64,000 nucleotides of DNA from assembly GCA_948567375.1 (NCBI GenBank), contig OX419762.1:30447465-30511464 (forward strand), given 5' to 3'. The position numbers were made by a program, and so were the translations under genes. Under the pieces are notes generated by a model that did no database searches, was not told the DNA's origin, and was given only the letters and a program-made list of their open reading frames with translations. This document shows, piece after piece, positions 7,293 through 64,000 of the stretch; within the stretch, counting starts at the first letter, position 1; each line of letters begins with the position of its first letter. This stretch comes from Lunularia cruciata. Its lineage: Eukaryota > Streptophyta > Marchantiopsida > Lunulariales > Lunulariaceae.

Positions 7293-7352
7293 CATTAGTT
7301 GCATGTTTTGCATTTTACACCATATAAGGAGTGAAATAGCTATAGGTCAAGT

Positions 7353-7487: not shown

Positions 7488-8339
7488 CCACAAACCTACA
7501 CATATAACTGTCCATACTACCATCAATGTTTGGGATGTGGCATGGTGCACAATTGTGCATATGATCCTTCCAAAAAATATCATTGCATTGTTCCAACATG
7601 AGGAGTTTGGAAGGCAAAACCTCACATGTTCATAAGATAGTGCAACCTATAGTTGGATCAAGTGTTGGTGGCGTAGTTTGTTGTAGATATATAGGTATAC
7701 AAGAACAGAAGCCATTCTAGGAATGGGTTACCCAAAACTCATGAAGTGAAAATGATTGGTAAGCAAGATGTACATGATTCACAATGCTAGAATAGTGAGA
7801 AATCCATAAGGTAGAATGCATCAAATGTAACTTGAAGCAAAGGCAACACTAAAACAAATTGAGAATAACATATGGCTAACAGACTAGTAAACCACAATAA
7901 AATTGAGAACTCTATGCAAACAATTGCAAGAAATAGGTAAAGTTATGTAAATGACTGCCTGTAAGCAGTGCATGAATGATAAAAATAAAAAAGTGGGTTG
8001 GAGTCGGGTAGGAACATTGTATACAAAAGAGGTCCCATGAATTAGGCAAAGAGCAAAGGAAAAATAATAAGGAAGGAATTAGTTGGGGAATGGAGGAGTG
8101 GAACAATGCAAGAGCTATAGGATGATGTGGCTATATAAACCTATCAAAGTGTAGCAGGGTGAGCAAAGCAAAAAAGGACAGGATATAAAGTATATCACAA
8201 CAAGTGATATGGATGCTTGAGTCCTAAAACACTAAACATCAAAAGGAAGCAGAAGGCGGCCATAGTAAAACTTCACGAAAACACCTGCAATATATATTTT
8301 GTAGATAAATATGTATCTGCACATACAATTTTCAAGCTT

Positions 8340-9300
8340 GGATCCATACTACCATTAATGTTTAGGAGGTTGCATGGTCCACAATTGCCCACATGATCCT
8401 TCTAGATAGTGTGGCATCCTTCCTTCCAACATGAGAACTTTGAAAGGCAAAACCTCACACACTCTCAAGATAGTATAGCATGTAGTTAAATCAAGTGTTG
8501 TTGGTGCAATTTGTTATAGATATACATAATCATTTGGATGAAATTGATGGATTGAGTGTCTATAACCTCCTCCTCAAATAGTAGCATAATGTAAGGTATT
8601 TTTATACTGATAAATCACTAAGTTCTCAAATTCCATTGGCATCATTCTTTGAAAGGTTATCCCTACAAGAACATGCATTTATTATACATTTGGATCATCT
8701 AAGTTCAAAACTACGATATGATCATGACAAATGGCTATAGGTAAATTTGGATCTTGGCTATAGAATAGAAAGTAAGGAAAGAAGGATGCTATGGAGACTT
8801 TCAAGTTGAACCAATAGCCCATGGCCAACCAAGGTAAGTGGAGATCTCAATTTCCCAAGTGGTCTCTCTACAAAGCATACTTATATGCAATTCTTTCTTT
8901 ACCATCTGAACCACTCTCTTTGCAAATCTATCTACCTCAAGGTGATCTTAAGAGGTAATATGGTGATCAATCTAGGCCTTTTTACACAAAGCCTAAAACT
9001 CTCCCAAGAACTCTATACCTTGATAAGTCAAGATCTCAATTGTTGCACCAAATTAATTGAGAACTTGATCCAAGAATGAGTAAGTTGTACTTTCATTGGA
9101 CTTTTTACCAACTTAATCCACTTTGAGAAGTACTCCACCATAATCAAAACATACCAATGATGTCTCACAATTTATAGTAAATGTCCAACAAAGGCCAAAC
9201 TCTAATCCTATGATAGCTAGTGGGTTTATGGTGGAATAGGAGTATTGAATGATGCTTAATCTCAATCACCAATTGCAAGTTTAGCAACACGCTATTGTAC
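8340..9300 (-). pseudogene. B1 integrase relic
   Basis: The region after the deleted RT resembles the integrase zinc-binding and catalytic regions of B2. Minus-strand translation near 9140-8990 gives MVEYFSKWIKLV, matching MVEHFSKWIELV of B2, and the surrounding DNA aligns block by block with 54660-55070. Several stops and frameshifts make it non-functional. Farther left, the DNA aligns with the integrase C-terminal part of B2 before the PHD finger. Confidence 0.75.
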
Positions 9301-9339
9301 ATTAGTCTACATAACAAACTTGATGTTTACTTGCTACCA

Positions 9340-9800
9340 CCTATCTGCAAGAATCACCCATCCAAAGGAACATTCTCCAAAATGTATGCTAGAAAAACTG
9401 CTTGATGAACCTAGAGATGTCATAATACACATATCATCTCCAAGAATATACCAGAATGGGGATCCTATATAGACCCTAACCTTGTCCAACATGTGCATAT
9501 CCCTGACATGGCCATCAAATAAATCACTAAATGAATGGTACCATGTCTTTCCAAATCTTGTGCCCCCAACAAGGTGTGGGTCTTTAGCCTTGATTTTTCA
9601 TATTGGTAACAAATTTGGATACCTATAGGCCAAGTGTACCAAATGATGTAGAGAGACTTGTCTAGCAATATTATCTCCTTCCACATACAAGTACCTTTAA
9701 ATATATATGTTTGTCTATAATACCGTAGCTAGTCTAGTGTTGATCCCATCAAACAGATCCAATAGGCATACTCCTTCCATTGGGTATTGCCAAGCAATAA
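9340..9800 (-). pseudogene. B1 cytosine-5 DNA methyltransferase relic (N-terminal half)
   Basis: Motif I reads EGVCLLDLFDGINT on the minus strand (9777-9733), very like the LFDGIxTG motif of DNMT3 enzymes. Motif IV, with the catalytic Cys, reads WPCQGYAHVGQG in a shifted frame starting at 9514. Motif VI reads YILENVPL around 9380. The conserved stretch LLGAQDLERHG precedes motif IV exactly as in B3. Motifs VIII-X are missing because a deletion joins this half to the integrase. Broken by stops and at least one frameshift. Confidence 0.85.
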
Positions 9801-10429
9801 GTGTGGTCACCAAAGGTGACAAGGTAATAAACTCCAAAATCTCACCCTCAAATTGGTCTACTTGTGGTACAAAGGCTCCATTCCAAGCATATTATACCAA
9901 TTGATTTCCAAGTTGTTGTAATACTTCATCAAAATGGAACAGATGGAACAACCCTACTTATGCTCCAAATCCAAGTGATCTACTCTAGTATGTGGGTATC
10001 ATGTACATGGGTGTTCCTCTCCAATAACTCATTAGGCCAAGTTAAAAGTGGAGATTGATACATGGTCCTTGACTCTAGTGAACCCAGACAACCATTACTA
10101 AAGTGCATTGGTAGGCAACATACATGTCTCTCACCTGACTACCAACCTAGCCTGTAGGAAGTTGTCTCTTCCCAGTAATTAATGCTGAAAACCTATGGGA
10201 TATAACACTTCTCCACCAACTAGCACATTATATGACTCAGTTAATGTTACAATGGCTTGAGCTATCACCAAAGAACTATCAATCAAATGATTGTGCTAAA
10301 CTTGAACAATGAGCTACTCATATGTGATGTACTATGTGGAACCACCCTCTAGAGATTTCCATATCTAGAATTGATATCCTTCTACATTGGTCTTCCATAC
10401 CCCAAGATCAACAACTACGGCCTTCTCCA

Positions 10430-10840
10430 ACATAAGAGGTTGTGCACCAAAGTCTAATAAGACACTTTATGGTGTATAGACATTTCTTAAAGGTCCAACC
10501 AAACTAAAAATCTCACTTTAATTTCCAATAGGAACTCCAAGTGTAAACCTAGCTCTCTCAAATGTAGGTCTAGCAAGTAACTCTTCCAACCTAGTAGTTC
10601 CTCTGCTTACCATAAGCCACTAGTAGGCAAATGGATCCCATGCTTCTCAACCAAGTTTTCTCCACCAGCAACCACCTTTGCTCTAGAAGTATAAAATATA
10701 CTATCCCTATTCTCACAAAGTGTGAAAGCCAAGAAAAAAACACTAGAGCTAGGTCAACTCCCAATGTAAATATGTCATTGGTTGAGAACAAATTGGACCA
10801 CATAATCAACTAAGCCGCCCCCAATATTTTATTAGACATT
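10430..10840 (-). pseudogene. B1 retropepsin-like protease relic
   Basis: Minus-strand translation has the phrase FTLGVDLALVF upstream and the active-site segment VLLDFGAQPLML near 10480-10450. The equivalent Ty3/gypsy motif is LLDSGA; here phenylalanine stands in second place, as in B2 and B3. The protease would cleave the polyprotein. Stops interrupt the frame. Confidence 0.72.
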
Positions 10841-12493
10841 GTCTCTATAGAAGTAGATGGTTACTAGTAACTAGTCTATCATGCACTCCATCATCACTTA
10901 CCACACCTACACTAGACCATTTAATACCCATGGATGTTGCTTATAGCATCTCAAAGACTTGGGAAGTTTGACCAGTTGACCAAATTTTCCTCTTTGTAGG
11001 TCTATCTCCACTCATGCTCCTTTAGGCCAAAGAGCATGTATTAGACTCCTAGTTATTATGATGGATGCATCTGCCTATGCTAATCCACACATGAAGTCAA
11101 TGATATCATTATAAATAATCTAAGAGATAAAAGACTCAACACCTTAAGTTTGATCTCCTCTAAGCTATAGTTATGCAAGTTTTTGCTCCAATTATTCAAT
11201 CCAAGTAGCCATAGTTGTATCAAAAGCAAAGGTAGGTATTGTGCTCCTACCAGGTATGGGTCCTCTATTGCCACCTCTACCACCTCATCCTCCATGACTT
11301 GGGACTCCTCTACCACTATCCATAGTAGCCCTACTACTCTGTAAATCTAGATGTAAGTCAAAGCATTGGTCACTAGTGCGACCAAATCTATGGCAATAAT
11401 CATACCACCTTTGGGTTGGCTGAGGTGCTCTAGAGGTATTGTACTACTACCCTAGGTTCACTTTCTCTTGTGATGAGGTCTACCACAATTCCAACAAGCA
11501 ACACTACCACTCATTGGCTACTATTGACTAGGAAATGAGGGTAAGGGTCTAGGTGCACTAGGAACTCCTCTTGTTCCATAAGATTGGGGTTGTCCATTTT
11601 AGCTCCAAAAGCCAACATGGTATGGTGCACTCTATTTCACTCTAGAAAAAATAAAAATTTTGGATGAGATCTCCTTACCAATCCTGATATCACCACTCTC
11701 TACTCCACCATGTTGAGCTTAATGCGTTCTGCCAAATCAAAGACCATTGCCAAAGTTGGTGAGATAGCCTTCAAAAATGTAGTATCATGTATTTTATGTT
11801 GCAACTCTTTGTCTAGTATCTCATACTAAAATTGGACAGCTTGGGCCTTAGTAGCTGCTTAAGTGAAATTGATGAGCCATCTCATGCAAGTGTATGCTTT
11901 GCATAGGCTTTCTCTCTTCAGCCTCCTATTGAAACTCCTACAAGCTCTTCAACTTATCAATCCACACTCCCTAGTAGTTTTGCCTCAAACATTGGAAGAA
12001 CTCCACCATGAGGTTAAACCTTAGTACTACACCACCTCTTGTACTAATACCTCCACTCATCATAGGACTATCTCCAATTAGTGCACCTTCATTACATACA
12101 CCAATGTTATTAGAGCTAGAACTTGTGGGTATTACTAGTCTTCCTCTAAAAACTAAGCTTGAACTGATGGAAATGTAGTTTGAGACCAATATTGTTCCAT
12201 AGTTCACTCTACTCCAAATGTGCTCTCTTAAACTTATGATAACCATCCATCTTTGGCCCTCCAAGTGTTTGAACAACCCCTTCTATGCCATGAAGGATGT
12301 GAACAAAGTTGTGTTCCACATTTGTCATAGATCGCACTAACTTTATCAAACTATCAAACTCTTGGATGAATCATCCAACTCAATGGTACCCATCGTACCA
12401 TAGTATGCTTTGTATCTCACCATAAATGTATCCACTCTCAATTGAATCAACTCATGTGTCCAACTCCAAACCAAAATCAATCTTCTCTCTCAT
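10841..12493 (-). pseudogene. B1 gag relic with zinc knuckle
   Basis: The start ATG corresponds to position 12493 by alignment with B2 (start 58327) and B3 (start 53038). Minus-strand translation at 12276-11971 matches gag of B2 in the region before the phrase about FRGRLVIP. A CCHC-type knuckle, CWNCGRPHHKRK, lies near 11500, but the final Cys codon is lost. Gag would package the element RNA. Many stops and frameshifts. Confidence 0.75.
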
Positions 12494-12976
12494 TGGTACT
12501 TGAGATACGGGCTCATATCAAGCACCAATTGTATAAACCCATTTCATATTGTAGCAAAATATCTTCTAGGATCCTTGGAGAACTTTATCATGAAATGTAA
12601 TCCCAAATTGTATTTGTAACTAAAAGAACCACCAACAACCAAACACCATCCACTAAGGTAACTCTAACTGTAACAACTACATTAGGAGAAAGGGCAACAT
12701 GTAACTTACCATCACAATATGCACTTACACGATTTGAAAGTCATCATTTCTTGCCTTATTGGAGAGAAACATAGGTAGTTTGATTGGTCATCAATATAAC
12801 CTCACTATCAAGAGCACACTAGAGCATAAGTGCTCTGAATATCAAGGCACCTCACACAAAACATAGTGCACAAATAGGCAATAGAGAAGGGAAGAAGACC
12901 AATCACAAGAGATATAAAACAAGAACCCACCACCTCAAACATCTAAAGTGGGCGGACTCTACCACCATTTGGCATT

Positions 12977-14219
12977 TGATGTAATAGGAGCATCTATCTA
13001 CTCTTATATTGCCAAGAATGGGATCAATTGTCCTTTCCTAGCCAAAGCTACATATGTATAAATATACTATAGACTATTCCACTAGTGTTTAGGACAACAA
13101 GTGAGTGTGGTATATGACCCATTTGTTGGTAGGGAGCTTGAGGGCTTAATGCCCTCAACTAGAGTCTTGCTACCAAGTCAAAAAATGGGGGTCAAGGAGA
13201 AGCTGCCTCTTGTAGAGATCAAGGTGCAACACCCCAAAATGAATTTTTGAGAAGTTGGGCTTGGCTAATTTAAATTTTGTGACCTCCAAAAGCCTCTCCA
13301 AATCCAATCAACTACACTAAATCTGACCTTAACTTGAATAACCTCCAAATCAAGTCAATCCTTTGACAATCTAGCAAATCTTTAACTCTTCCACTAAATT
13401 TGAACCTCCAAATCAAGCTAAGCTATCCAATTCGGAGAATAAGGAACTCCAAATCCCTTATTCAAGAAAATGGGGTCCTAGATCTAACCCCAATTTTGCA
13501 CCTTGGCCTGATTTGTCACATCCAACCTTCATTTCCACCTTCCAACCTTCAGATTGACTCCTCAATCTAGGAAAATTGATCACCTTCTTGTACAAATCTA
13601 GAAATTTAGACAACTCTTCCACACATAGTCCAACAATTATGAAATCCACCTTGAAATCATGTAGTGCTTCTACACAAGTTCACTCTCAAGAAAATCAAGC
13701 ACAACTATCTCTTAAGCCTAGAAATACCACCAACGTCTGGTATCTAATTTCCCTCTTACTCACTTCTTTAATGTAATCAATTTGATCACACACTCAACTT
13801 AGATAAGAAACTAAACACTCAACTAAACTCAACTCATTCTATTGCCAACCACGGGCTCTAATTACATTAACAAGCCACATCCTAGCTAAGAGATTCCAAG
13901 TGACACTTGTTGGTATCTATCTACAATGACAAAGAGCTCAAAGGCTTAACATCAAAGAAGTGAACTCTCTGGAGCTGCACTTTGAAGATATACTCCTCTA
14001 GAGTATACAAGAACCCAACATTAATAGCACATCTAATGGCCCAACTGACAGTGCAAATGGTGTAGCAAACAATAACTCTAATAGTGTGATTTGTAGCCTT
14101 ACCATGAGATGTGGCCGCCACAAAGTAATCTTTGAGCAACTACTGATATAGTTATGACCACCAAGACTAATACTCTTACATCCAAGCAAACTAGCTTTGG
14201 CATTGCAAATGTTTTGACA
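12977..14219 (-). repeat. B1 5' LTR (about 1.24 kb)
   Basis: The minus-strand LTR starts TGTCAAAAC at 14219 and ends TCA at 12977. It aligns with the LTRs of B2 (58832-60131) and B3 (51183-52517), including the inward tail with the CCCATTCTTGG block. Just inside, TGGTGG-AGAGTC is conserved in the three copies at the position expected for a primer-binding site. I did not match it to a specific tRNA. Confidence 0.8.
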
Positions 14220-40300: not shown

Positions 40301-40499
40301 GATACATTGGGTTAGACAAACCCCTACTAAAATACATCCTTGATTTGAGCCTTACACTCCTCTAACTCATGAAGCAATAGTCGATATAAAGCCTTACAAG
40401 GAGGTGTTTTCCAAGAAGTATCTCAAATATGATCTACTCTCTTTTTTGGTGGTAAACCTACGGGTAATTCATCCAGAAAGACATCTTGGAACACATTGA

Positions 40500-49739: not shown

Positions 49740-51182
49740 ATGCTCCTTTTCATAAGGCAATTCCTAACATCATGTCCAGCACCAAGACATGACAGACACC
49801 AAAATATAGCCCAACTTTAATCCTCAAGTTGACAATCTCAAATCGTGATAAATCACACTTAGCTGATAACAAGGGTAGCTTATTTATCAAACTTGTTGGC
49901 CTCCCTATTCCGTCTTTTGCTAATGGGTCCTTGATACATTTTGTCTCTTGAGTCATTAGTTTGCATGCTTCATCAGCTCTTGTTGGTGTGGAAGATCTTG
50001 GTTGAAGCACGTGCAAATGGCACCAAACAAGGAGTACAATTTATTTTCCATGTATGGCACCAAATGTTTGAAGTTAGGGGTGATCTTGCAACCACCAATG
50101 CTCATAAAATTGTGATAATTCTAGGGAGGCATCCTCCATACAGATCAACAATGCAACTTGATGTGCATAGTGTAAACACATTATCATTATCATTGTGAAG
50201 TTCTTTGCGCATGGATCCAATGGCGGCTTGCCATTCTTGGCTGTCACCACAAGAAGATGTAGATCATTGACAAGGCTCAACACAAATTTGGATACCTTCA
50301 TCACAACTTTTTTTGTAGAAAGGTCCAACAAATGCTTGTGGCTTTTGGATCTTCCCAATTGAGCCAAGAACTCTCAATGTTGACTTTCCCATGCAAGTCT
50401 CATATTTCCTAATGTTGATTCAAGGTCACATGTTAATGTTTGAATATATTGTTTTAGTACTAAATGAGCTCCTTCAGCCCAAGATATGTTGATGTTCCCA
50501 AGGTATAGGAACTTGGATATTGATGGTTGAGCAAACATCTCCTTGTGTGGTAGCCAAGTCTTCTCAATATTGGAGCAACAAATGATATGCAACACATTCT
50601 ATCTTGAAAGATAGCCACCTTGACGTGACTGTAGCATGGTTGATAGATTGCACTACTTTGTTCTACTCTACCATGACTGCCTTCCATTCTTCATCATCTT
50701 TAACAATTTTGTGACAATGCGCCAAAAGGTTTTGTTGATGTGCCAATTGCAAAGAAGGTTCTTGTTGTCGAGAAAGGTATCAACTATTGCATTCATTAGA
50801 GCTAACTCCCAACTTGTAAGGATCACTCTTGGAACCATGACAAACATCCTTTGCATGCACTTTTATGCCCTAGCATAGTCTACCTTAAGCTCAAAGTGGA
50901 GAAATGGGAACATCATGTTACTCCTACAACATTTAGGAGTAGAAGTTTAATTTTTTTCATCTTGTAAGTCAAATCATGATGAAGGTCAATGAGAATGACC
51001 TAGCAAGCATGATTGCATACATATGGGCGACAAACAAGTGCAAATTGTGCTCATCTTCATCCTTCTTGAATTCATCTTTGTATTTCCTTGTGGATATGTC
51101 ATCCAACAAAGCTTGCAACAACATGACCTTTGAATCTGCAAGATGAAGAGTCAATTTGTCAAGGTTGTCACACCATGTGTAG
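49740..51182 (-). pseudogene. Mutator-like (MULE/FAR1-type) transposase relic
   Basis: The minus strand reads DEHNLHLFVAHMYAIMLARS near 51040, then TYKMKKIKLLLLNVVGVT. Next come VPRVILTSWELALMNAIVDT (50840) and NLLCNWHINKTFWR. These are the hallmarks of the MULE DDE domain (DCTYKTNxYxxPLL, VxVTDRELALMxAI, LLCxWHIxKNV). C-terminal parts include HLVLKQYIQTLTCDLESTLG, a KDPLAKDGIGRP basic motif, and a zinc knuckle CLSCLGAGHDVRNC at about 49795-49755. The catalytic Asp of TDREL is changed to Ser-Trp. The N-terminus is cut at 51182 by the B3 LTR. Inactive. Confidence 0.9.
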
Positions 51183-52517
51183 TGTCACACCTTGATTGCT
51201 TGGACTCTAGAGTAGTAGTGTTGGTAGTTAGGAGTATTTTGGTAGTTACTCATAGGCTACTTGTTGATGGTCAGCTTTCATGTTCAAAGTACTAACTACA
51301 TGGTAGGGCCTACTATCACTTGTACCATTTGCACTATTGGGTGTGATGTTAGTGGGACCATTATATGTTAAGACTTAGGTCAAGTCCAAGGGATACACTT
51401 TTGAAGTATAGCTCTAGAGAGTTCACTTCTTTGATGTTGAGCCTTTTGAGTTCTTGGCTATGGTGGACAAAAGCCAGCAAGTGTCACTTGGATTCTCTTA
51501 GCTAAAGTGGGTGTGGCTTGATTGTAATTAGTATCCAATTGTTGATAGATTATTGAGTGATAGATCAACTATTGATCTGATTGAGTGTGATTTGAGTTGT
51601 GTAAACAAACTGATTACATCAAAGAAATGAGGTCAAGGGGAAATTGATGCAAGAACTAAAAGTGTTTGTGGTATCTCCAAGACTTGCTAATCATTGGTAG
51701 CTTGATTGGAGTTCTGGTTTTCCCTAGTGTGAAAAAGCTCATTTGATAGATGTAAATTTGGCAATGAGGTAGACAATGTGCAGAAGTATTGGCCAAATTT
51801 TAGCAAAGAGAAGTAATTTTCAAGCGATACTTGTGATTTTGAGCTCAAGAGATGAAGGGAGGACCAATTTGGTGGAAGTTGAGTTCAAAAAGTGAAACTA
51901 AAGGTGGAGTTGAGAACCCATCCTTGTGAATTTATGATTTGGAGATATTTCAATTTGGCATGAGTGGAGAGTTAGCAGAGGATTTGATGGTCAACCAACT
52001 TTAAGGATTTATGTCAAATTTTATGTCAAATTTTTGTTGGAGTTTATGTCAAATTTTGGCCAGATTTGGAGGAGTTTTGCTTGTTGGTTAGATTTGGAGG
52101 AGTTTCACTCAAGTTGGAAGAGTTTTACAGATTTGGAGGAGTTTTGCCAGATTTGGAGAAGATTCAAAGGCAAGAAGAAAGGCCTCATTTGGACATCTAG
52201 AGGCTTTGAGGCATAAGGTTGTGGGCTATGAGAGGCTACAAAGGCCCAGCAAGCCATTGAGGCTAGCTAGTTTAGAGTAGATTTTGATCATTGTTTGGCA
52301 AAGTCTGCCCATCTTGCTAGATTGTGCACAACAAGGTTTGACCTCTAGATCTTTGGTTCCTAGACTAGTGCCCTAGCCAAATGGTCCACCTTCACTTGTT
52401 GTCCTAGTGACTGTTCCACTATTATCTATACACTTGTAGCTTTGGCTAGGAGAGAAAATTTGATCCCATTCTTGGTGATCTTGGTAGCTTAGGAAGTAGA
52501 TAATTCATATTCTATCA
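51183..52517 (+). repeat. B3 5' LTR (about 1.33 kb)
   Basis: Starts TGTCACACC and ends ATCA, aligned in opposite orientation with 58832-60131 (B2). It contains several units of about GATTTGGAGGAGTTTTGC between 52063 and 52160. It interrupts the MULE relic. The matching 3' LTR lies beyond the window. Confidence 0.85.
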
Positions 52518-53037
52518 AAAGCCAAATGGTGGCAGAATCAGTCCAATGTTGATTTATGAGATGGAAGGTTTTCATTTAGATTTCTTATGATTGGATCTCC
52601 TCCATTCTCTACTTCTTGTTTGTGCACCATGTTTGTGTGAGATATCTTGACTTTAGAGTGTTGGTGCTCTGGTGTGCTCTTGGTAGTGAGGTTGGAATGA
52701 TGACCAATAGGACTACCTATGTGTCTCTCCAATGAGATAGGAAGTGATGACCTATAGACCATGAGAATGCATGTTGTGATGTCATGTTACAGATTTTTCT
52801 TTCCCCTAGTGTAATTGTTGTAGTTAGAGCTACATTAGTCGGTAACGTTCAGTTGGAGGTATTGGTACTTGGTGGTGATTTTTGGTGGGGTACTCGCGGA
52901 GGTTTGGGTTACGGGTTGCAGTTCTTGGTTACTTTGTCACAACTGAGTTCTTTGGGCATTCCAAAGGAGATAGTGCTATAATATGTAGTGGGTTAACATG
53001 GAGTAGCGCTTGATATTAGCCTATATCTTAGGTCCCA

Positions 53038-53744
53038 ATGAAAGAGGAGATTGACTCTAAGTTGGAGTTTGACACAAGAGCTGATTCACTTGAGAGTGCA
53101 CTTGGTGTGTTTGCACTATTGTTGTGGGACATGGACAAGATTCATGGGGCCTCCAAAGGTGTTACTTTGGAATGATCTGCAATAGATGTGGAACCAGACT
53201 TTGTTCACACCCTTCATGGCATGGAAGTGCTTATTTCAAAACTTAGAAGGTCCACCAATGGATGGACAACTATTGTGAGTTTAGGAGAGCCCACTGAGAG
53301 GAGATTGAGCTATAGAGACAATATTTGTCTCCAAACTATGACTCCATTACTTTAGGCTTGATTCCTAGGGGTAGATTGGCAATACCCAAGAGTTCTAATT
53401 CTAGTAGTGTTGGTAGATCTCTTGGGATGGTGCTACTACAAGTGAAGGTACTACTACAAGAGGTGGTTTAGTATCGAGGTTTAACCTCATGGTGAAGTTC
53501 TTCTAGTGTTTGAGGCAAAAATACTAGGAAGTGCGGATTGACAAGCTAAAGAGCTTGCAAGAGTTCTAAAAAAAAGCTAGAGAGAGCCTATGCAAGGTAT
53601 ACACTTGTGAGACAATCAATTATTTTTACTCAAGGAGTTACTGAGATCTAGGCAATCTAGTTTTGGTATGAGATACTGGACAAGGAGTTGCGATGTAGAG
53701 TCCATGATGCTATGTTATTATATGCAACTTTGGCTATGTCGTGC
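53038..53744 (+). pseudogene. B3 gag, N-terminal part
   Basis: ATG at 53038, after the leader, opens MKEEIDSKLEFDTRADS, matching B2 gag starting at 58327. The text ends near DKELRCRVHDAMLLYATLA, where element B2 interrupts it. Stops occur, and one about 50-bp stretch present in B2 is missing near 53175. Confidence 0.82.
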
Positions 53745-53957
53745 ATAAACATACATTTTTGTCAACATCACACACTATAGAAGCACAACTCACACATAAG
53801 TCATACATGGACTCTAAAGTACCACAATGATTAGGAGGCCTGGTACTATTGAGCCCCATCATTAGTTGCCTATCTGCAATCTATACCATATAAGGGATGA
53901 ACCAGCTATAAGTCATAACAATTGTCCTTGAGTGACCACCATGAGGGGAGGAGTCAT

Positions 53958-54038
53958 ACATGCCATATGCCATCCTCTCAGACAACTATCACACAATAAC
54001 ATAGTAACAACTTTACTAAAAGATCCGCATAACATACA
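53958..54038 (-). pseudogene. B2 PHD finger
   Basis: Minus-strand translation: C-M-L-C-G, eleven residues after C2, then C-D-S-C, LRGW, H, MA, C, followed by MTPPLMVV. Spacing C-x2-C-x11-C-x2-C-x4-H-x2-C is exactly a PHD finger. The six ligands are at 54038-54036, 54029-54027, 53993-53991, 53984-53982, 53969-53967 (His) and 53960-53958. The last cysteine pair is lost after QGQLL; it is still seen in B1. A frameshift separates it from the preceding integrase C-terminal region. Confidence 0.9.
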
Positions 54039-54134
54039 CCGCAAACCTACACATATAGTGCCAAACTTGGGTCCATAGTACCATCTATATTTAAGAGGTG
54101 GCATGGCATACAATTGCACACATAATCCTTCCAA

Positions 54135-55250
54135 ACAACACCATCATGTCTTTCCAACACAAGGACTCCAGATGGCAAAACCTCACGCACTCTCAAGATA
54201 ATATGGCCTATAGAAACATCAAGTGTTGTTGGTGCTATTTGTTATAGATATACATAGGTGACTAGATAAAATTGATAGATCAAGGGTCTATAACCTACTC
54301 CTTGAATGGAAACATAGTGTAAGGTATCCCTAAGTTGAGCAATTGCCAAGTTCTCAAAAGCTATCGGCATCACTCTCCAAAAGATCTCTACCTATTGAGA
54401 ACAAGCATTCATCTATACATCTGGATCATCCAAGTCCAAAACTACAGTAGCATCTTGATGGATGGCTATAGGTAAATCTAGATCTTGTCCATACAATAGA
54501 AAGTAACGAGAGAAGGATGTTAAGGAGGCTTGCCTGCTGAACCAATAGTCCATGGCTAACCAAGGTAACTAGAGATCCCAATCTCCCAAGTGGCCTCTTT
54601 GCAAACCATACTTTTGCAATCCTCTCTTCACTGTTTGAACCACTCTCTCTACTAAGCTATCTACCTTAAGGTGATCTTGGGAGGTAGTATGATGATCAAT
54701 CAAAGCCTTGTCACACAAGACCTGAAACTCCTCCAAGAACTATGTACCTTGATCAGTCAAAACCTTAATTGGTGCACCAAAATGATGGAGAACTCGATCC
54801 AAGAACAAGTAAGTTGTCCCTTCACTGGACTTGTCAGGAAGTACCACCAACTCAATCCACTTGGAGAAGTGCTCCACCATCATCAAAACATACCAATGAT
54901 GTCTCACAGTCAATGATAAAGGTCCAACAAAGTCCAAAATCCAATGGTAATCCAATCCCATGATAGGTAATGGGTGTAATTGTGGTGCAGGAGTATTAAA
55001 TGATGCTCTAACTTGATCACAAACCACACATCTGGCAACAAATTGTTGTACATTGGTCTGCATACCGCATCATCAATAATGACTCTAGAAAAAGCTATAT
55101 GTATGCTTTACTCCAAAATGTCCCAACTCTTCATGAGCATGACGGACCAAGTGTTGTCTTTGAGATGAAAGTAGTACTACTCACACTCTATCATCCTCTC
55201 GTACATGCAAAAGGTGTTTACTCTCGAATCTAAACCGTTTGGCTTGCTGA
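54135..55250 (-). pseudogene. B2 integrase
   Basis: Zinc-binding end CVVCDQVRASF near 55030, catalytic core with LDYHWILDFVGPL (first Asp), MVEHFSKWIELV and VLTDQGT (second Asp), then LVERVVQTVK with the catalytic Glu near 54640. A C-terminal domain with ENLAIAQLRDTLHYVSIQGV, TLDVSIGHIILRVREVLPSG and WKDYVCNCMPCHLLNIDGTM leads to the PHD finger. The three catalytic residues are still readable, but stops and shifts interrupt the frame. Confidence 0.9.
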
Positions 55251-55489
55251 AGAACACGATCTCTCTCCTTGGCCCCAACTATGCTACCTATAATACCAAT
55301 GTGAAGATAGTCCATCACTAAGACAACATCATGAATGTCTGTACCACTATCTCCACTCTTTGGATCTATGATCTCAATAACTCCTCTTGTATGTGTTGAG
55401 AGAGATACTACCAAAGCCTCAAAAAATATATAGATAAAGGCAGATGCATGCCAACCTAGCACTATCTCCTCATCTATCTCACCATGCCA

Positions 55490-55750
55490 ACATGCTCCGG
55501 TCTGATTTTGCTGGCTAGGACATGGGTTTCTATTCAACTCATCTGCATCATGGTTCACCACTCCAGGTCTATGAATAACCGTCAAATCATACTCCTATAA
55601 AATCAAGCCCATCATGCAAGCTTCCTTGAAAGCTTGTCGGATTCCATCAACTACTTCAATGGCTGATGATCAATGATGAGAGTAAAAAGGTTACCAAATA
55701 GGTAACATAAAAAATGTACTACTGCCCATAGCATTGCCAAGCACTCTCCC
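55490..55750 (-). pseudogene. B2 RNase H C-terminal part
   Basis: Reads ECLAMLWAVVHFLCYLFGN, LIIDHQPLK and MESDKLSRKLA, then EYDLTVIHRPGVVNHDADEL. These match the end of gypsy RNase H (ECLAxxWAxxxFRxYLxG, TDHQPLKWL, VxHRPGxxNxxADALSR). The upstream RT is absent. Confidence 0.87.
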
Positions 55751-56119
55751 TTGTACTCCAAATCCAAGTGATCTCTGTTGGTATTGGAGTATCTTCTGCA
55801 TGGGCAGTCCCCTCCAATAAATCACCAAGCCAAGTAACAAAACCACTAAAAAGTTGAAACTTATGTTGCTATGGTCCCGGACTGTAGTGAGCAAAGACTA
55901 CCACTACTAAAGTGTATAGGTAGGCAAAATACCCATCCCTCACCTGACTACCAACCTGGTCTATAGGAGATTGTCTCCTCTCAATAATCAATACTAAAAC
56001 CCATGGAGTATAAAACTACTCTCCCAACTAACACATCATATGACTCAGCCACTATCGCAATGGCTTGAGCCCTCACCACAGAGCTATTAGTCAAATGACC
56101 AAGCTGAATCTAAACAATA

Positions 56120-56620
56120 GCTCTCCATATGTGATGTATTGTGTAGAATCACCACCTAGAGATGTTTGGATCTGAAATGGACACCTCTCCACAATGGTCT
56201 TTCATAACTCCAGACCAACAACTACAACTTTCCCCAACATAAGGGGCTATGCAATAAAGTCTAGTAAGATCTTCTGTGGTGTATAGACTTTCCTTGAAGG
56301 TCCATGCAAACAAAAAATCCCCCTTTGGTTATCCAATAGGACAAATCTGGGTGTACACCGTGCCCACTCAAAGGCCGGTCTAGCAGGTAATTCCTCCAAT
56401 CTAACTATTGCTACCTGCCATAAACCATTGGTTGCTGAGCAAATGCCATGCCCCTCAACCAAGTCAACTCCACTATCACCTACATTTGATCTTGTAATAG
56501 GAACCACATCATCCCTAATATCACAAAGCATGGAAGCCAACAAAAACACTAGGGTTGGGTCAACTCCCAATGTACACACATCATTGGGTAAGAATAATGG
56601 AAAGTGCATAATCAGCTAAC
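56120..56620 (-). pseudogene. B2 protease
   Basis: Minus-strand text begins MHFPLFLPNDVCTLGVDPTL, then FVLLDNQRGIFCLHGPSRKV, YTPQKILLDFIA and PLMLGKVVVVG. The aspartic protease site is LLDFIA, in place of the usual LLDSGA. Mutated at the Gly position as well. Confidence 0.78.
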
Positions 56621-56699
56621 CACCTCCAAATCATGCTAGACTTAGTTTTTGTAGTAGAAAGTAGCTGGCTAGTAGGCAGTCCATCATACAACCCATCAC

Positions 56700-58327
56700 C
56701 ACTTACCACACCTACACTAGGATGCCTAGGACCCATGGATGTTGTCTGAAGTGCCTTAGAGAGTATAAAAGATTAGGGAAGTCTAACATGTCTACCGGCC
56801 TCTCTTCTTTGTGGGTTCAACTCCATTGATATTCCTCTAGGCTCTAGAGCATGAACTGCATTCCTAGTCACTACGGTAGATGCATCTACTTGTGCTTCTC
56901 TGTACATGAAGTCTAAGACATCTCTATCACCTGCATATGAGGTAGAAGCCTTAGCATCCAAATCTGATCTCCTCTGAGCTATGGCCATGCTAGCCGATCT
57001 CTTCTCCAACTGCTCAATCCAAGTAGCCATGGCTGTATCAAAAGTAAGGGCGGGTATTGCACCTCTACTAGGTGTGGATCTTCTACCACCACTTCTACCA
57101 CCTTGTCTTCATAACCTAAAGCTCCTCTACCAGCTGCCATAATAACTCTACCACTCCATAACTTTGGGTGTAAGTTAAAGCATTGATCACTAGTGTGACC
57201 AAATCTTTGGCAACACTCACACTGTCTCTATGTTGGCTATGATGCACCAAAGGTATTAGGTCTGCTGCCATGAGTGCACTCTCTCTTGTGATGAGGTCCA
57301 CCACAAGTCCAACAAGCAACAGTACTACTCATTGGTTGTTTTTGACCCAAAAATGAAGGTAAGGGTCTGGCCACATTAGGCCCTCCACTCACTCCATAGG
57401 ATCTAAGCTGTCCACCCTGTCCTTGGAAAGCAACATGGCATGGTGCACTTTGCTGCACTCTAGAAGAAGTAACAACTATGGATGAGGTCTCTCTACCAAA
57501 TCCAGATGTCACCACTCTCTCCTCGACCATGTTGATCTCAATACACTCAACCAAACCAAAGACCACTGCCAAAGTAGGTGAAGTAGCATGTAGTAATGTA
57601 GCATCACAAACTCTACATTGTAACTCCTTGTCCAGTATCCCATACAAAAATTGGATTGCTTGGACATCAATAACTCCTTGAGTAAAACTGATCAGCCATC
57701 TCATGAAGTGTATGCCTTGCATAGGCTCTCTCCAGCCTTCTATTGGAACTCTTGCAAGCTCCTTAGCTTGTCAGTCCGCACTCCCTTTTAATTTTGCCTC
57801 AAACACTAGAACTCCACCATGGGGTTAAACTCCGGTACTACACTACCTCTTGTAGTAGTACCTCCACTTGTAGTAGCACCATCTCCAAGAGATCTACCAA
57901 TGCTACTAGAGCTAGAACTCATGGGTACTACCAATCTACCCCTAGAAACCAAGCTTGAAGTAATAGAGATATAATTTAAAGACCAATACTATCTCCATAG
58001 CTCAATCTCTTCCAAGTGAGCTCTCCTAAACTCATAGTAGTTGTCCATTAGTGGAACCTTCAAATGCTAAAACAACCCCTTCCATGCCATGAAGGGTGTA
58101 AAAAAAGTTGGGTTCCACATTTGCTATTGATCACACCAACTATTGAACTCTTGGATGAAGTCATCCAACTCAATGGTACCCACTATACCAAAGTAACACT
58201 TTGGACCTTTGGAGGTTCCATAAATCTCATCCATGTCCCACAACAATAGTGCAAACACACCAAGTGTACTCTCAATTGAATCAACTCTTGTGTCACACTC
58301 TGATTCAGAGTCAATCTCCTCCTTCAT
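56700..58327 (-). pseudogene. B2 gag with CCHC knuckle
   Basis: Starts MKEEIDSESECDTRVDSIES at 58327 and continues through LYGILDKELQCRVCDATLLH and VVFGLVECIEINMVEERVV. The knuckle CWTCGGPHHKREC lies at 57314-57276, and a C-terminal helical part (MATWIEQLEKRSASMAIAQR, 57030) follows. Long open stretches make it the best preserved gag of the family in this window, but stops still break it. Confidence 0.85.
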
Positions 58328-58831
58328 TGTGACCTAAGATACAATTTGATAACGAGCACCGCTTTGAGTAAATCCATTGTGTATTGCAGCGCTATCTCCT
58401 TCAGAATCCCTAAAGAACTCCATTGTGAGAAAGTAACCAAGAACTGCAACCCGCAACCAGAACCACCACAAGTACCCCACCAAAAATCACCACCAAGTGC
58501 CATACCACCAATTGAACGTCATCAACTAGTGTAGCTCTAACTGCAACAATTACACTAAGCAAAAGAGCAACCTGTAATGTACACTCTCATGGTCTATAGG
58601 TCATTACTTCCTATCTCACCAAAGAGAAACATAGGTAGTTTGACTAGTCATCATTCCAGCCTCACTACCAAGAGCACACCGTAGCACTAATGCTCTTAAG
58701 TTAAGGCACCTCACAAAAACATGGTGAAAATAGGAAGCAAAGAATGGAGAAGGCCCAATCATAAGAAATCTAAACAAAAACCCTCCATCTCATAAATCAA
58801 CTCTAGACTAACTTTGCCACCATTTGGTATT

Positions 58832-60131
58832 TGACATAACATGAGTTATCTACTTCCTAAGCTACCAGTATCACCAAGAATGGGATCAAACTGTCTCTCC
58901 TAGCCAAAGTTATAGGTGTATATATAACATTCAAACCATCACCAAGACAACAAGTGAAGGTGGATTAATTAGCTAGGGCACCAATCTAAGAACCAAAGAT
59001 GTAGGAGTCAAACCTTATTATGTGCAATCTAGTAGGGTGGGCAGATTTTGCTAAACAATGACCAAAATCTACTCTAAACTAGCTAGCCTCATGCCAACAA
59101 GCTGACCCTTCTAGGCCTTTGTAGCCTCTCATAGCCCATAGCCTTGAAGTCTCTAAGTGCCAAAATTCAGCCAAATGAAGCCTTTCTTCTTGCCACTTCA
59201 ACCCTCCAAATCTAGCCAAAATTTGATGTTTAAATCCTCTCCAAATTTGGCCAAAATTTGACATAAACTCCAACAAAAATCTGACGTAAATCCTTAAAGT
59301 TGCTTGACCACCAAATCCTCTACTAACTCTACACTCAAGCCAAATTGAAATGATAGGTTTCTCTAAATCACAAATTCAAGTCGATGGGTTCCCAACTCCA
59401 CCTTCAATTTCACTTTTTGAGCTCAACTCACACCAAATTGGTCTTCAAAGTCACAACTACCGCTTGAAAATTGTTTCTCTTTGCTCAAAATTTGGCTAGC
59501 ACTTCCACACACCGTCTACCTCATTGCCAAACCTACATCAATAGAATGAACTTCTACACAATAGGAAAAATCAGAACTCCAATCGAGCTACCAATGATCA
59601 ACAAGTCTTGGAGACACCACCAACACTCTCAATTCCTGCATCCGATTTCCCCTTGACTTGACCTATTTGATGTAATCAGTTTGTTTACACAACTCGGATC
59701 ACACTTAATCAAATTAGTACTCAATCTGTCACTCAATAATCTGCCAACCACCAGGCACTAATTACAATTAAGCCATACCCACTCTAGCTAAGAGAATCCA
59801 AGTGACACTCATTGGCCTCTATCCACCATAGCTAGGAACTTGAAGGCTCACCATCAGAGAAGTGAGCTCTCTAGAGCTGCACTTTGAAAGTAAACCCCTT
59901 GGACTCAAGCTAGGTCTCAAACTCTAACGGTCTCGCTACCAGCACATCTAAGGGTCCCGCTACCAGCACATCCAATGGTATGAATGATGCAAATGACGGT
60001 GGGCCTCACCATGTAGTCAATACCATGAACATGAAATCTGACGGTCAAGTAACCACCAAAATCTCCTAACTACCAACACTACTAGTCTAGATTTTGAGCA
60101 ATCTAGGTGCAAAGCTACGGATGGCATGACA
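58832..60131 (-). repeat. B2 5' LTR (1.30 kb)
   Basis: Minus strand TGTCATGCC at 60131 to TCA at 58832. It aligns along its length with the B3 LTR (51183-52517) in inverted orientation. A short local duplication (GCTACCAGCACATC twice) is at 59935-59985. Confidence 0.85.
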
Positions 60132-61020
60132 CCTACTTTCATAGTGGTCTTTGGTTTGGATGAGCGTATTGAGCTCAACATGGTAGAAGAGAGAGTGGTG
60201 ACCTCTAGATTTGGTAGGGAGACCTCATCATAGTTGTTACTTCTTCTAGAGTGCAATAGAATGCACCATGTCATGTTGGTCTTCAAAGACATGATGGACA
60301 GCCAGATCCTATGGAGCGAGTGGAGGGCCAATTGTAGCTAGATCCTTACTTTCCTTTTTGGGTGAGAAATAGCCAATGAGTGATGGTGTTGCTTGTTGGA
60401 CTTGTGGTGGACCTCACCATAGGGGAGAGTGCACTTAGGGCAACGTACCAATGCTTTGACTTACACCCGGAGTTACGGAGTGGTAGAGCTATTATGGTAG
60501 GTAGTAGAGGAGCTCTAGGTCATGGAGAACAAGGTGGTAGAGGTGGTGGTAGATGATCCACACCTAGTAGGGGTGTAGTAGTGCCCTTACTTCTGATACA
60601 GCCATGGCTACGCATTGAGCAGTTGGAGCAAAAATTAGCTAGCATGGCCATAGCTCAGAGGAGATCAAATTTGAGTGCTAAGGCTTCCACTTCATATGCG
60701 GGTGATAGAGACACCTTAGACTTCATGTGAAGAGCAACATAGGTGGATGCATCTTTCGTAGTGACTAGGAGTGTAGTACGTGCTCCAAGGCCTAAAGGAG
60801 CATTAGTGGAGTGCTCCAAGGCCTAGAGGAGCATTAGTGGAGTTGTACACACAGAGAGAAGAGGTTGGTAGATAGGTCAAACTTCCCCAATCTTTTACAC
60901 TCTCTAAGGCACTATAGACAACATCCATGGCTCCTAGACATCCTAGTGCAAGTGTGGTGTAGTGATGGGGTGCATGATGGAAAACCTACAAGTCAGCCAC
61001 GTGCCACTACATAGACTAAG
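60132..61020 (+). pseudogene. B3 gag, C-terminal part with CCHC knuckle
   Basis: Resumes PTFIVVFGLDERIELNMVEE in line with B2 gag. It contains the knuckle CWTCGGPHHRGECT near 60390-60430. A 36-bp tandem duplication (GGAGCATTAGTGGAGTGCTC-type text) is at about 60782-60842. Stops present. Confidence 0.82.
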
Positions 61021-61500
61021 TCTAGCACAATGTTGGAGGCAGCTCAACTGATTATACGCTTTCCATTATTCTCAACTAGGGATATGTGTACATTGGGAGT
61101 TGACCCAACCTCAATGTTCCGGTTGGCTACCATGCTTTGTGAGAGAATGGATGATGAGGTTCTTACTACTAGAGTAGAGGTGGTTGATAGTGGAGCTAAG
61201 TTGGTTAAGGAGCATGGGATCCACTCAACGGACCTGTGGTTTATGGCAAGCAACAACGGCTAGATTGGAGGAGTTACTAGCTAGACCTACCTTTGAGTGA
61301 GCACAGTTTACACCTAGAGTTGTCCTATTGGATAACCAAAGGGGGATTTTTTGTTTAGTGGGACCTTCAAGGAAGATCTGTACACCACAGAGGATCTTAC
61401 TAGACTTTAGTGCACAGCCTCTTATGTTGGGGAAAGCTATAGTTGTTGGTTTGGAGTTACGGAAAACCATTGTGGAAAGGTATCCATTTCAAATTTAGAT
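61021..61500 (+). pseudogene. B3 protease
   Basis: STRDMCTLGVDPTSMFRLAT at 61072, KLVKEHGIHST, then PQRILLDFSAQPLMLGKAIV from 61385. The active site LLDFSA again has Phe after Asp. Upstream VVDSGAKLV is not the catalytic site, because the flap-side LLDxxAQPLML context identifies it. Confidence 0.78.
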
Positions 61501-62112
61501 ATCTCTAGGTGGTGATTCTACACAGTAAATCACATGTGGAGAGCTTGTTGTTTAGATTCAGCTCAATTTTCTAACTGATAGCTCTATGGTGAGAGCTCAT
61601 GCCATTGCAATAGTGTTGAGTCATAGATATGTTAATTGAGGGAGCAATGTTATACCCCATGGGTTTTGGTATTGACCATTGGGAAGAGACAACCTCCTAT
61701 AGACCAGGTTGGCAATCAGGTGAGGGATGGGTATGTTGCCTACCTATATGCTTAAGTAGTGGTAGTTTTGGCTGACTATAGTCCAAGACCATGGCAACAT
61801 CCATTTTAGCTTTTTAGTGGTTCTGTTACTTGGCTTGGTGATTTACTGGAGGAGAACGCCCATGCAGAAGATACTCCAATACCAAAGGAAATCACTCGGA
61901 TTTGGAGTACAAGTGGGATTGTTGCATCCACCTTGGATATTCCATTGTGGAGTTTAGAGGAAGCATTGTAGCAACATGTAGATCAATTGGTGCAACAAGC
62001 TTGGAGTGGAGCCTTTGTACCACTAGGTGACCAATGTGAGGATGAGCCTCCAAAGTCAATTACCTTTTCACCTCTAGATACCACACTCATTGCTTGGCAA
62101 TATTCAAACGAG
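61501..62112 (+). other. B3 linker between protease and methyltransferase
   Basis: Translated fragments include YPMGFGIDHWEETTSYRPGW and, in the methyltransferase frame, VDQLVQQAWSGAFVP and SPLDTTLIAWQYSNE. The same linker occurs in B1 (minus strand, about 9960-9790) and its first part in B2. No catalytic motif was recognised. It may be an N-terminal extension of the methyltransferase. Confidence 0.6.
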
Positions 62113-63054
62113 GGAGTATGTCTATTAGAGTTTTTTGGTGGGATTAGCATTGGAGTAGTTGCGGTACTACATGTGAGTATATGAGTACATATGTACTTGT
62201 ATGTGGAGAGAGATGAGATTGCTAGGCAAGTCTATCTACATCATTTGGCACACTTGGCCTATTGGTATCTTGAGTTATTACTGATGTCAATAGTCGAGGG
62301 TTACCAGAAGACCCTACCAGCAGATATTTCCTTGTTGGGAGCGCAAGATTTGGAGAGACATGGTTCCATTCATTTGGTGATTTCTAGATGGCCATGTTAG
62401 GGACATACACATGCTGGACAAGGTTTGGGTCTTCAAGATCCCCGGTCTGGTGTGTTTTTGGAGATGTTATGAATACTACAACACCTCCAAGTTCATCAAC
62501 CTATTTCTCCAACTTAGATTTTAGAGAACATCCCTTTGATAGGTGATTCTTGCATCTAGGTGGTGGCAAGTACACATCATATCCATTCTTGGATGGGACC
62601 TGCCATGTTGTTAGATGCATCAAGAGTGGGATCACGGGCTCAATGTCTTTATCTTTGGTGGACAAACCTCTTACTTAGAGAGGTTCTACAATGCGCTTAT
62701 GATGAGATTCAGCTACTAGGCCACATCATTATTGATGACATCTTGGATGTTGGGCATCAATCTTAGACGGTGGTATTGCTTGATAGGTTACCTATGGTAG
62801 AGGTGAACCTAGTTGGACAACCCCAAGCAAGTTTCCCAAGCTCCCATGCTTTTTTCAAGAGGGAAGTCTTGGATTGGTTTGGGACTCATAGTTACAACAG
62901 TTGGTGGAACCCAACGCCAATGAGAGAGAGCGGGCAATGGGTTTTTGCACCAATATTACCATTGTTCCAATAGTGTTAGAGGCATCAAGTATTAGGTCAA
63001 GCTATGGACCTGAATTGTTTGACTTGGATTGTGAGCCTTGGCAGAGCAATGTAA
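62113..63054 (+). pseudogene. B3 DNMT3-like cytosine-5 DNA methyltransferase domain
   Basis: C5 methyltransferases transfer a methyl group from S-adenosylmethionine to cytosine in DNA. Motifs appear in linear order. I is GVCLLEFFGGISIG (SAM binding, 62113-62157). A YLYVERDEIARQV segment follows. IV is ISRWPC then a stop in place of Gln, then GHTHAGQGLGLQDPRS (catalytic Cys codon 62395-62397). VI is ILENIPL with Glu at 62524. VIII is RVGSRAQCLYLWWTNL (62623-62670). IX is MRESGQWVF. X is HQVLGQAMDLNCLTW from 62983. The length of about 313 codons fits the family. The order I to X and LFDGI/ENV features (clearest in B1) point to DNMT3-like, unlike plant DRM with permuted motifs. In-frame stops occur but no frameshift. 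It lies between protease and RT in the RT frame, so it is part of the element and not a host gene. Confidence 0.92.
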
Positions 63055-64000
63055 GATGTGCTTGATAGGCATCACCACTTAGACACTTATGAGCTCTGTG
63101 CTTATCAAAGCAATTCAAGCACATGCTTGGAGCGATGGACCAAGTGGACAAGGTACTCTTGGGACACAACCCAATGGCTATTAGGGAGAATGGTCTACTT
63201 GGAGTCCATCCAAGTGAGCATGGTCTACTTGGATTACACCCTTTAGTCTACTTGGGATGCAGCTCAAGGACGTATGGAGCTTGTGGCCAAAGTAGAGAGA
63301 GTTTTTCACACTAAGGTTGGGACCTCTAATGCTTGGGAACATACCACTACTGCTCCCAATGGCTCAATATAATAGCCAGTCAGTACATCTTCCACTCCTA
63401 TGATAGTTATAGAGGATACTTGGGAGCTAGATCTTGGACCTAAGCTCACAAGAGAGGAAAGACGGAGGGTTTGGAGATTCTTGAGGAGCTACACGAGTTA
63501 TTTTGCCCTCAGTACTAAGGATTTGGGTGCTCTAAAAGGACCTGGTATTTAGATTGAGCTGACTAGCAATACACCAGTTTTCCAATGTCCCAATCAATAT
63601 AGTGACATGGAGAGAGCACTAATTCAGAGCTAGAGTAGAGACCTTTTTGAGGTTGGTATGGTAGAGATTTCACATGGAGAGTATGCATCAACTACAATGA
63701 TGCCAACCAAGAAAGATATGCATGGCAACTACAAAGATAGGCAGATTTGTGGAAATTTTACTATCCTATCAACCGACAAACTAGGGCTGATTGGTATGCC
63801 ATACCTACAATGGGGGAGATCTTTGATGTAATTGGGCATGCAAATGTCTTCAGCACTTTGGATCTTCAAGCAAGATATCATCAGCTGCCGATCAGAGAGG
63901 AGGATAAGTCCAAGATAGCATTTTGTGCTATTGATCCTCATGGCAAGGATGGGTTATATCAATGGAGGTTCTTACCATTTGGGTTAAAGAATGCTCCTGC
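63055..64000 (+). pseudogene. B3 reverse transcriptase (N-terminal part, cut by window end)
   Basis: A linker with LGPKLTREERRRVWRFLRSY, TPVFQCPNQYSDMERALIQ and VEISHGEYASTTMMPTKKDM leads into RT: DRQICGNF, then after a 1-nt frameshift near 63755 NRQTRADWYAIPTMGEIFDV, ANVFSTLDLQARYHQLPI, KSKIAFCAIDPHGKDGLYQW and RFLPFGLKNAP at the window end. These are RT blocks 1-4 (FSTLDL carries the first catalytic Asp); the YxDD block lies beyond. The sequence is notably better preserved than the other RTs here. Confidence 0.93.

Follow-up and report, generated by a model that had tools for sequence, protein, structure and literature searches.

A stretch of 64,000 nucleotides from the genome of the liverwort Lunularia cruciata (contig OX419762.1, positions 30,447,465 to 30,511,464; hereafter the window) ends within a copy, termed B3, of a Ty3/gypsy retrotransposon that carries a cytosine-5 (C5) DNA methyltransferase (DNMT) domain between protease and reverse transcriptase (RT). 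Our analysis revealed that B3 belongs to a family that is recent and numerous in this bryophyte genome, with at least a hundred DNMT-bearing copies, some of them with open reading frames (ORFs), and that the family enzyme is of the DNMT3 type by sequence, fold and tree, its catalytic activity being predicted. Cytosine methylation is one of the main weapons of plants against retrotransposons, so an element whose coding region regularly includes a methylating enzyme, kept under selection, poses a direct paradox. The explanation that we favor, with a probability of roughly 0.55 for the whole, is that the DNMT3 domain ends the Gag-protease ORF, that Pol would be supplied by read-through of a UAG stop codon, and that the enzyme would methylate the element's own complementary DNA (cDNA).

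In the methyltransferase segment of B3 (coordinates of features are collected in the table below) one frame, read from 62113, contains motif I from 62125, motif IV with the catalytic Cys codon, the Glu of motif VI at 62524, motif VIII from 62623 and motif X from 62992, which we take to be the C5 methyltransferase motifs of those names. Motif IX (ERERAMGF, at 62922) lies in a different frame, so the B3 frame is locally disturbed near this point; a previous, sequence-only reading of the window had placed all six motifs in one frame, and was right for the other five. Because of its nine in-frame stops B3 cannot make the enzyme, and it is a dead fossil.

A search with the translated segment (X at stops) against 5.8 billion proteins identified 18 proteins at E <= 1e-3, the best from Calypogeia fissa (2.4e-92, 52% identity), followed by Marchantia polymorpha and, lower, Sphagnum fallax; the Calypogeia protein P0001 aligns with 61813-63048 at 50% identity in a single high-scoring segment pair. 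These matches make the C5 methyltransferase assignment certain, even though the Pfam model PF00145 remained under the cut-off with the window segment alone (E 0.15). A PDB search gave E 1.2, all five listed sequences being C5 methyltransferases (four DRM2 and one tRNA C38 enzyme). A match by chance or in a wrong frame is ruled out by the protein-collection searches with B3 and with P0005, a stop-free relative that found 78 proteins. Thus, the sequence-only reading of a C5 methyltransferase, in this place and motif order, between protease and RT of a land-plant Ty3 element is borne out, with the correction that the window copy is dead. The element that it described is real but had been given too small an extent: B3 runs from 51166 to at least 65618, beyond the window, and is split by a second element (B2). 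With the ORF-bearing copy L025 from the same genome as reference, blastn aligned reference positions 1-2647 with 51203-53730 and 2650-6593 with 60132-64000 (two pieces each) and, in a locus reaching past the window end (L084), 6429-8179 with 63836-65618; B3 and L025 are collinear over 3.55 kb at 82.8%.

Copies of the family and the Gag-Pol junction

We searched 565.8 Mb of the genome for copies of the family; only the best first-look candidates were scored, and the genome-wide counts are lower bounds. PF00145 has at least 123 matches, a few of them in host-type genes. With the Calypogeia DNMT domain as the query, the best 125 of 12,757 candidates all cover 317-318 of its 318 residues at 72-75% identity; 75 of these 125 are stop-free within the match, and eight have a 1,428-codon open frame. 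Twenty long loci, selected because the frames around their DNMT are long and open, show the order Gag-protease-DNMT followed by RT-RNase H-integrase-PHD finger, many with stops or frame breaks and one (L028) without the first part of Gag. A domesticated host gene was rejected as an explanation, since in all 20 the DNMT lies between protease and RT sequence and all but L028 have the terminal repeat A described below. In the open frames of L022, L024 and L025, Pfam places the DNMT in ORF1, and RT, RNase H, integrase and PHD finger in ORF2 (in L025 ORF2: RVT_1 121-279, RNase H 342-471, H2C2 616-669, rve 688-781). The protease upstream of RT was identified by tblastn, and by Pfam in the relatives P0024, P0041, P0046 and P0054 (below or near the cut-off in the first three). 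RT, RNase H and integrase (rve) in this order, with a protease upstream, make the family Ty3/gypsy. At the end of the integrase, where chromoviruses have a chromodomain, there is a PHD finger (E 2.2e-10 in L025; L024:907-4017, L025:5968-9078), which could read histone tails at integration.

The 5' end carries a repeat A (449 bp) and the 3' end the array B-A-B, with B of 107 bp. In all five loci with both ends (L023, L026, L029, L030 and L038) we found, by eye, TG...CA termini and 4-bp target duplications. The family thus has the direct repeats, termini and duplication of a long terminal repeat (LTR) element, though the repeats are split as A-coding-B-A-B instead of forming two equal LTRs; the split repeats, combined with an rve integrase and 4-bp duplications, were noted at the 3' ends of L021, L023, L025 and L032. 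Repeat A is present in 19 of the 20 long-locus pieces (absent from L028), and pairs of at least 250 bp, available in 16 of the 20 fetched loci, are 96.5-99.7% alike in 15 and 88% alike in L024. The genome size of L. cruciata has been ascribed to Ty3/Gypsy bursts in passages of PMC12885004 and PMC9985172.

A DNMT-independent sample was drawn with an RT segment as the query. The best 150 of 33,125 candidates are 98-100% identical to it (47 at 100% protein identity), and 20 loci, none of them found by eye in the DNMT lists, were spaced by hand down this list. All 20 carry the DNMT in the expected place, with strings of motifs I, IV (PC) and VI (ENV) in 20, IX in 18 and X in 18. The sequence-only reading would have been undermined by copies lacking the domain between protease and RT, and none turned up among these copies; all of them are closely related to the query RT, and more distant lineages free of the DNMT, at which no search was aimed, may exist. 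In the 0.8-kb DNMT piece of the sample, 13 copies have one to three stops, three are gapped or frame-broken (L062, L073 and L077, the gap of L073 lying inside the DNMT), and four are open. We rejected B2 as a counterexample to DNMT membership: one internal deletion removed its DNMT together with its RT, so B2 is a decay product and not a DNMT-free lineage.

ORF1 and ORF2 of L024 and L025 are in the same frame, exactly one codon apart, and a UAG separates them at the identical place in 20 of the 20 long loci. The six bases that follow fit CAR-YYA in 19, the exception being L039. In the distant contig L055 (see below) the junction reads UAG-CAA-UCA at the same position, while the surrounding residues are unlike those of the liverwort family. 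UAG_CAR_YYA is described in a passage of PMC3542737 as the consensus for efficient, tobamovirus-type (type I) read-through, and the family shares with it the stop codon, the six next bases and the use for appending a polymerase; the tobamovirus type occurs in RNA viruses, whereas here it would operate at a retrotransposon Gag-Pol junction. We consider it very probable that Pol is supplied by read-through of the UAG. The metagenomic relative P0046 runs from protease through DNMT to RT without a stop, which makes the junction stop a feature of some lineages only. Bypass of the UAG by splicing, reinitiation or a second promoter would agree with the Marchantia gene model P0006, a prediction that joins DNMT directly to RT in a splice-like manner, but the frame is kept and the UAG retains its context in the 19 loci and L055, and we regard bypass as quite unlikely. 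If read-through is confirmed, the DNMT would be made in the amounts of Gag and not in the lower amounts of Pol, and the conserved leaky-stop context thus predicts the dose of enzyme produced. The frame was indeed previously described as continuing without a shift into RT, and the two ORFs do share a frame with a single stop between them; DNMT and RT do not, however, occupy one ORF, since in open copies the DNMT is part of the Gag-protease ORF, with RT coming after the leaky-looking UAG.

Enzyme type and relatives

PF00145 matches L025 ORF1 with E 1.5e-7. Motifs I, IV, VI, VIII, IX and X follow in canonical order, with motif VIII as a nearly invariant block in the family, and the enzyme is nearer to DNMT3 than to other C5 enzymes and is not permuted as in DRM. 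The DNMT of L025 is 73% identical to that of Calypogeia P0001 and 72% to that of Marchantia P0004. The 78 proteins found with P0005 (E <= 1e-3, 8,000 candidates scored) include named matches from Marchantia, Calypogeia, two Sphagnum species, the charophyte Closterium and the chlorophyte Monoraphidium.

A DNMT tree of 63 rows was built from B3 and those 62 of 79 proteins that have at least 85% of the domain (the 17 dropped include Sphagnum and Monoraphidium). B3 falls into a clade of 15 (support 100/100) with Calypogeia, ten Marchantia rows and three others; its position inside this clade is weak and its branch long. In a second architecture, defined by Pfam positions in P0050, the DNMT lies between RNase H and integrase. 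All 10 rows labelled with this slot fall in one clade of 13 (100/93), and the 18 rows labelled with the protease-RT slot fall outside it, the labels being Pfam-checked for some rows and taken for others from domain lists and coordinates, several on fragments. A sister group thus has a DNMT of the same kind in this other slot, a change of position inside a single polyprotein family.

L055 (CADCWO010000201.1), filed as a Synechococcales metagenome-assembled genome, encodes Gag, protease, DNMT (51% identical) and RT of the same kind. Since the contig carries a eukaryotic retroelement Gag-protease-DNMT and RT, its bin is probably contaminated, and L055 is most likely a misbinned algal contig. A bacterial or phage origin of the DNMT was rejected: 14 viral_contigs loci and four of five genome_contigs loci (the fifth being L055) match a partial domain at 26-63%, and the nine of these loci that were placed in a tree branch apart.

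Retrotransposons bearing a DNMT are already known (passages of PMC5890265, restated in PMC12344493), and the mention in the sequence-only reading of methyltransferase capture in charophyte and dinoflagellate elements agrees with the former, which describes Klebsormidium and Symbiodinium cases. The closest system is KnitGypsy-Dnmt3 of Klebsormidium nitens, which according to the legend of Fig. 4c in de Mendoza et al. 2018 (PMC5890265) combines a Gypsy domain set with DIRS-like repeats. The liverwort family has, like it, a Gypsy-type pol, a DNMT3-type enzyme under purifying selection and direct repeats in DIRS-like order, here A(449)-coding-B(107)-A-B. It differs in the position of the DNMT, which in KnitGypsy-Dnmt3 lies inside the Pol ORF and here ends the Gag-protease ORF before the in-frame UAG, and in its host, with a charophyte on one side and a liverwort on the other; the liverwort family further shows an integrase PHD finger and 4-bp target duplications. 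The shared odd repeat layout makes common descent likely, the two elements being likened by description and not by alignment. No Klebsormidium sequence was present among the 18 and 78 protein matches, in searches that covered proteins up to about 1,740 and 1,650 aa, respectively. The same source treats the Klebsormidium case as an acquisition independent of those of Symbiodinium, whose SymbioDIRS-Dnmt3 and SymbioLINE-Dnmt are likewise retrotransposons with a C5 DNMT (of DNMT3 type in SymbioDIRS), but are independent captures by the DIRS (tyrosine recombinase) and LINE classes, unlike the Ty3 family with its rve integrase.

The Marchantia polymorpha, Calypogeia fissa and Sphagnum proteins are annotated as hypothetical or unnamed genes, and several have the order Gag/protease-DNMT; among the titles and abstract openings listed from the open-licence PMC literature we found no article that names them a retroelement family, nor any report of a land-plant LTR element that carries a DNMT. 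According to a passage of PMC6338049, land plants such as tracheophytes lack methylase transposons. The extension of the charophyte case to land plants, proposed in the sequence-only reading, holds for a liverwort, without being the first case of its kind. Within these searches, four features appear to be new: the large, recent land-plant family, the location of the DNMT in the Gag ORF ahead of a stop of read-through type, the integrase with a PHD finger, and the history of two slots.

The genome also contains host DRM-type genes, L002 and L015, with long open exons and permuted motifs, alongside L001 and L004, which we take from their motifs to be DNMT3-like genes, as well as genes that are presumably CMT-like. 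L002 shows 63-74% identity to three proteins of Riccia sorocarpa, and no other of the best 120 of 1,002 matches exceeds 56%; Calypogeia, Sphagnum, ferns and seed plants are represented among these 120, whereas a Marchantia DRM is not.

Selection and the substrate of the enzyme

Over the 190 pairs of the 20 long copies, the ratio of nonsynonymous to synonymous differences (pN/pS) is 0.383 for the DNMT, 0.475 for Gag, 0.496 for protease and linker, 0.558 for the ORF1 tail, 0.257 for RT, 0.263 for RNase H and 0.469 for the integrase-PHD region (INT-PHD). The ratio of nonsynonymous to synonymous changes against L025 (N/S), which picking copies for open frames affects less than it does stop counts, was compared with a null in which the changes were reassigned among sites that share a trinucleotide context (500 shuffles; all comparisons share L025). 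Relative to this null, N/S in the 20 copies is 0.62 for the DNMT (as low in 0 of 500 shuffles), 0.54 for RT (1), 0.69 for INT-PHD (8), 0.66 for RNase H (26), 0.68 for Gag (32), 0.82 for protease and linker (37) and 0.90 for the ORF1 tail (226). In B3 the values are 0.58 for the DNMT (0), 0.60 for protease (0), 0.60 for RT (21), 0.61 for Gag (30) and 0.75 for the tail (110); in B1, an older copy in the window, they are 0.50 for the DNMT (0), 0.65 for protease (0), 0.56 for Gag (0) and 0.73 for INT-PHD (6). As N/S falls below the null similarly in the other enzymatic parts, the DNMT is constrained like them and under purifying selection, a sign that the domain matters but one that is silent on its role.

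One could regard the DNMT as passive baggage, captured once, useless now and hitchhiking, as other LTR families multiply without a DNMT, and RT and RNase H are more constrained than the DNMT. This is very unlikely, given that no shuffle reached the DNMT value in any of the three comparisons (all made against L025), that the domain is present in 20 of 20 RT-picked copies, and that it recurs in liverworts, mosses and green algae.

We suggest the following course of events. Read-through of the UAG in its tobamovirus-type context, which the conserved junction strongly suggests, would yield Pol; cleavage in the particle would free the DNMT, which would then methylate the newly made double-stranded cDNA of the element, probably at CG, before or at integration. 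The new copy would thus arrive pre-marked as methylated, host-like DNA. Such pre-marking would make the element less costly for its host and keep its cDNA from being detected by sensors of unmethylated DNA, while exposing the copy to C-to-T decay later on. Self-methylation and mimicry of host silencing, the roles offered in the sequence-only reading, remain inferences; passages of PMC5890265 discuss cDNA methylation as self-marking or protection. For methylation of the own cDNA inside the particle, taken by itself, we see slightly less than an even chance. A wider scenario for the family, in which DNMT3, made at the level of Gag, became a structural component of every particle and methylates CG sites of the own cDNA before integration, the PHD-tipped integrase targets tolerant chromatin, pre-silenced spread allowed the family to multiply (compare the 47 RT segments with 100% protein identity) and helped the genome to double, and a single green-algal capture of DNMT3 gave rise to such Ty3 elements of the green lineage and was followed by moves between the two slots, is doubtful. 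Liverworts are tractable, and since Marchantia itself has the family, the question of cDNA self-methylation, and of what an element gains by it, can be tested in a model plant.

Several points weigh against the favored explanation. The case for read-through depends on a single conserved context, known from one genome and one distant contig, with P0046 free of the stop, and the selection of the 20 long loci favored copies whose DNMT lies in a long open frame. Most copies are decayed, 16 of the 20 RT-picked ones having stops, gaps or frame breaks. Constraint on RT and RNase H exceeds that on the DNMT in pN/pS. In yeast, the domain of KnitGypsy-Dnmt3, the nearest published enzyme, showed no de novo methylation, a result that its authors do not take as decisive because human DNMT3B failed too, whereas the SymbioDIRS DNMT3 domains methylated CG de novo (passages of PMC5890265). 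Finally, the decay of the fossils can be explained by host MET1/CMT silencing alone and is no proof of self-methylation. C-to-T changes against L025 reach 39% of CG sites in B3, 46% in B2 and 49% in B1, as compared with 33, 33 and 41% at CHG and 10, 11 and 17% at CHH, and A-to-G changes amount to 4-6% in the three copies; the CpG observed/expected ratio is 0.46 in L025, 0.18 in B3, 0.15 in B2 and 0.07 in B1. The high C-to-T values at CG and CHG indicate that the fossils were probably heavily methylated at both, and since host pathways suffice for this, the pattern is neutral on self-methylation.

The enzyme could instead act on the host, if nuclear Gag-DNMT or the cleaved DNMT, perhaps guided by the PHD finger, altered host chromatin or the methylation of integration sites. 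The finger at the integrase end and the location of the DNMT in the first ORF are compatible with this, and host DNMT3-, DRM- and CMT-like genes could maintain the added marks. P0050, however, pairs a PHD finger with a differently placed DNMT, so the two domains need not work together, and Klebsormidium, which bears such elements, has a plant-like methylome according to a passage of PMC5890265; we therefore rate a host target as unlikely. RNA methylation by DNMT2-like enzymes is known within the C5 superfamily, and the location of the DNMT in the Gag ORF, beside the RNA-binding CCHC region, would allow it to methylate genomic RNA or the tRNA primer for packaging or priming; a passage of PMC5890265 raises RNA methylation for the LINE-borne enzyme. 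Against this, sequence, fold and tree (the latter without any DNMT2) group the enzyme with DNMT3 de novo DNA enzymes, and an RNA substrate is decidedly unlikely. Methylation of the element's own cDNA remains the function that we prefer.

Other elements and features of the window

Features of the DNMT-bearing family in the window
Feature	Position	Strand	Basis or remark
Element B3 (Ty3, DNMT-bearing), decayed	51166..64000, reaching at least position 65618 beyond the window	+	blastn to L025
B3 5' terminal repeat A (449 bp in L025)	51166..51616	+	76% to repeat A of L025
B3 Gag, first part, before nested insertion	53167..53730	+	reference 2072-2647; tblastn to Marchantia P0004
B3 Gag, second part, CCHC knuckle region	60132..60947	+	tblastn to P0004, blastn
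B3 aspartic protease region	61244..61666	+	tblastn to P0004 585-728; protease string at P0004 636
B3 DNMT3-type C5 DNA methyltransferase (predicted)	62113..63054	+	nine in-frame stops; catalytic Cys codon 62395-62397 retained
Decayed counterpart of the UAG-CAR-YYA junction, Gag-protease-DNMT ORF / Pol ORF	63370..63378	+	
B3 reverse transcriptase, truncated by window end	63421..64000	+	tblastn to P0006, P0017, P0071
Element B2, same family, nested in B3 Gag	53748..60134	-	DNMT and RT deleted; insertion about 53731-60131
Element B1, older copy	7295..13110	-	71.9-77.7% to L025, three pieces

The internal deletion of B2 spans the region from the protease linker to RNase H and leaves integrase and PHD finger in place. 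In B1 the DNMT is preserved from motif I to VI (9942-9357) and is then lost in a deletion that reaches as far as the integrase, and the 3' end of B1 is represented by a weaker piece at 6542-5936. PHD finger pieces of the two elements are found at 54071-53934 (B2) and 7508-7353 (B1), both on the minus strand.

A tRNA search of the window sequence found none, and a Pfam search of six frames of 1-3002 and 20001-26002 found just one domain at E <= 0.01. A probable host exon with DUF1242 (E 4.8e-10) lies at about 847-933. RT pieces of other Ty3 elements are present at 39242-40386 and 45698-46805 (minus strand), and 20372-20770 is a fragment of a eukaryotic large subunit rRNA gene that matches the 3' end of the Rfam model RF02543 with 232 bits.

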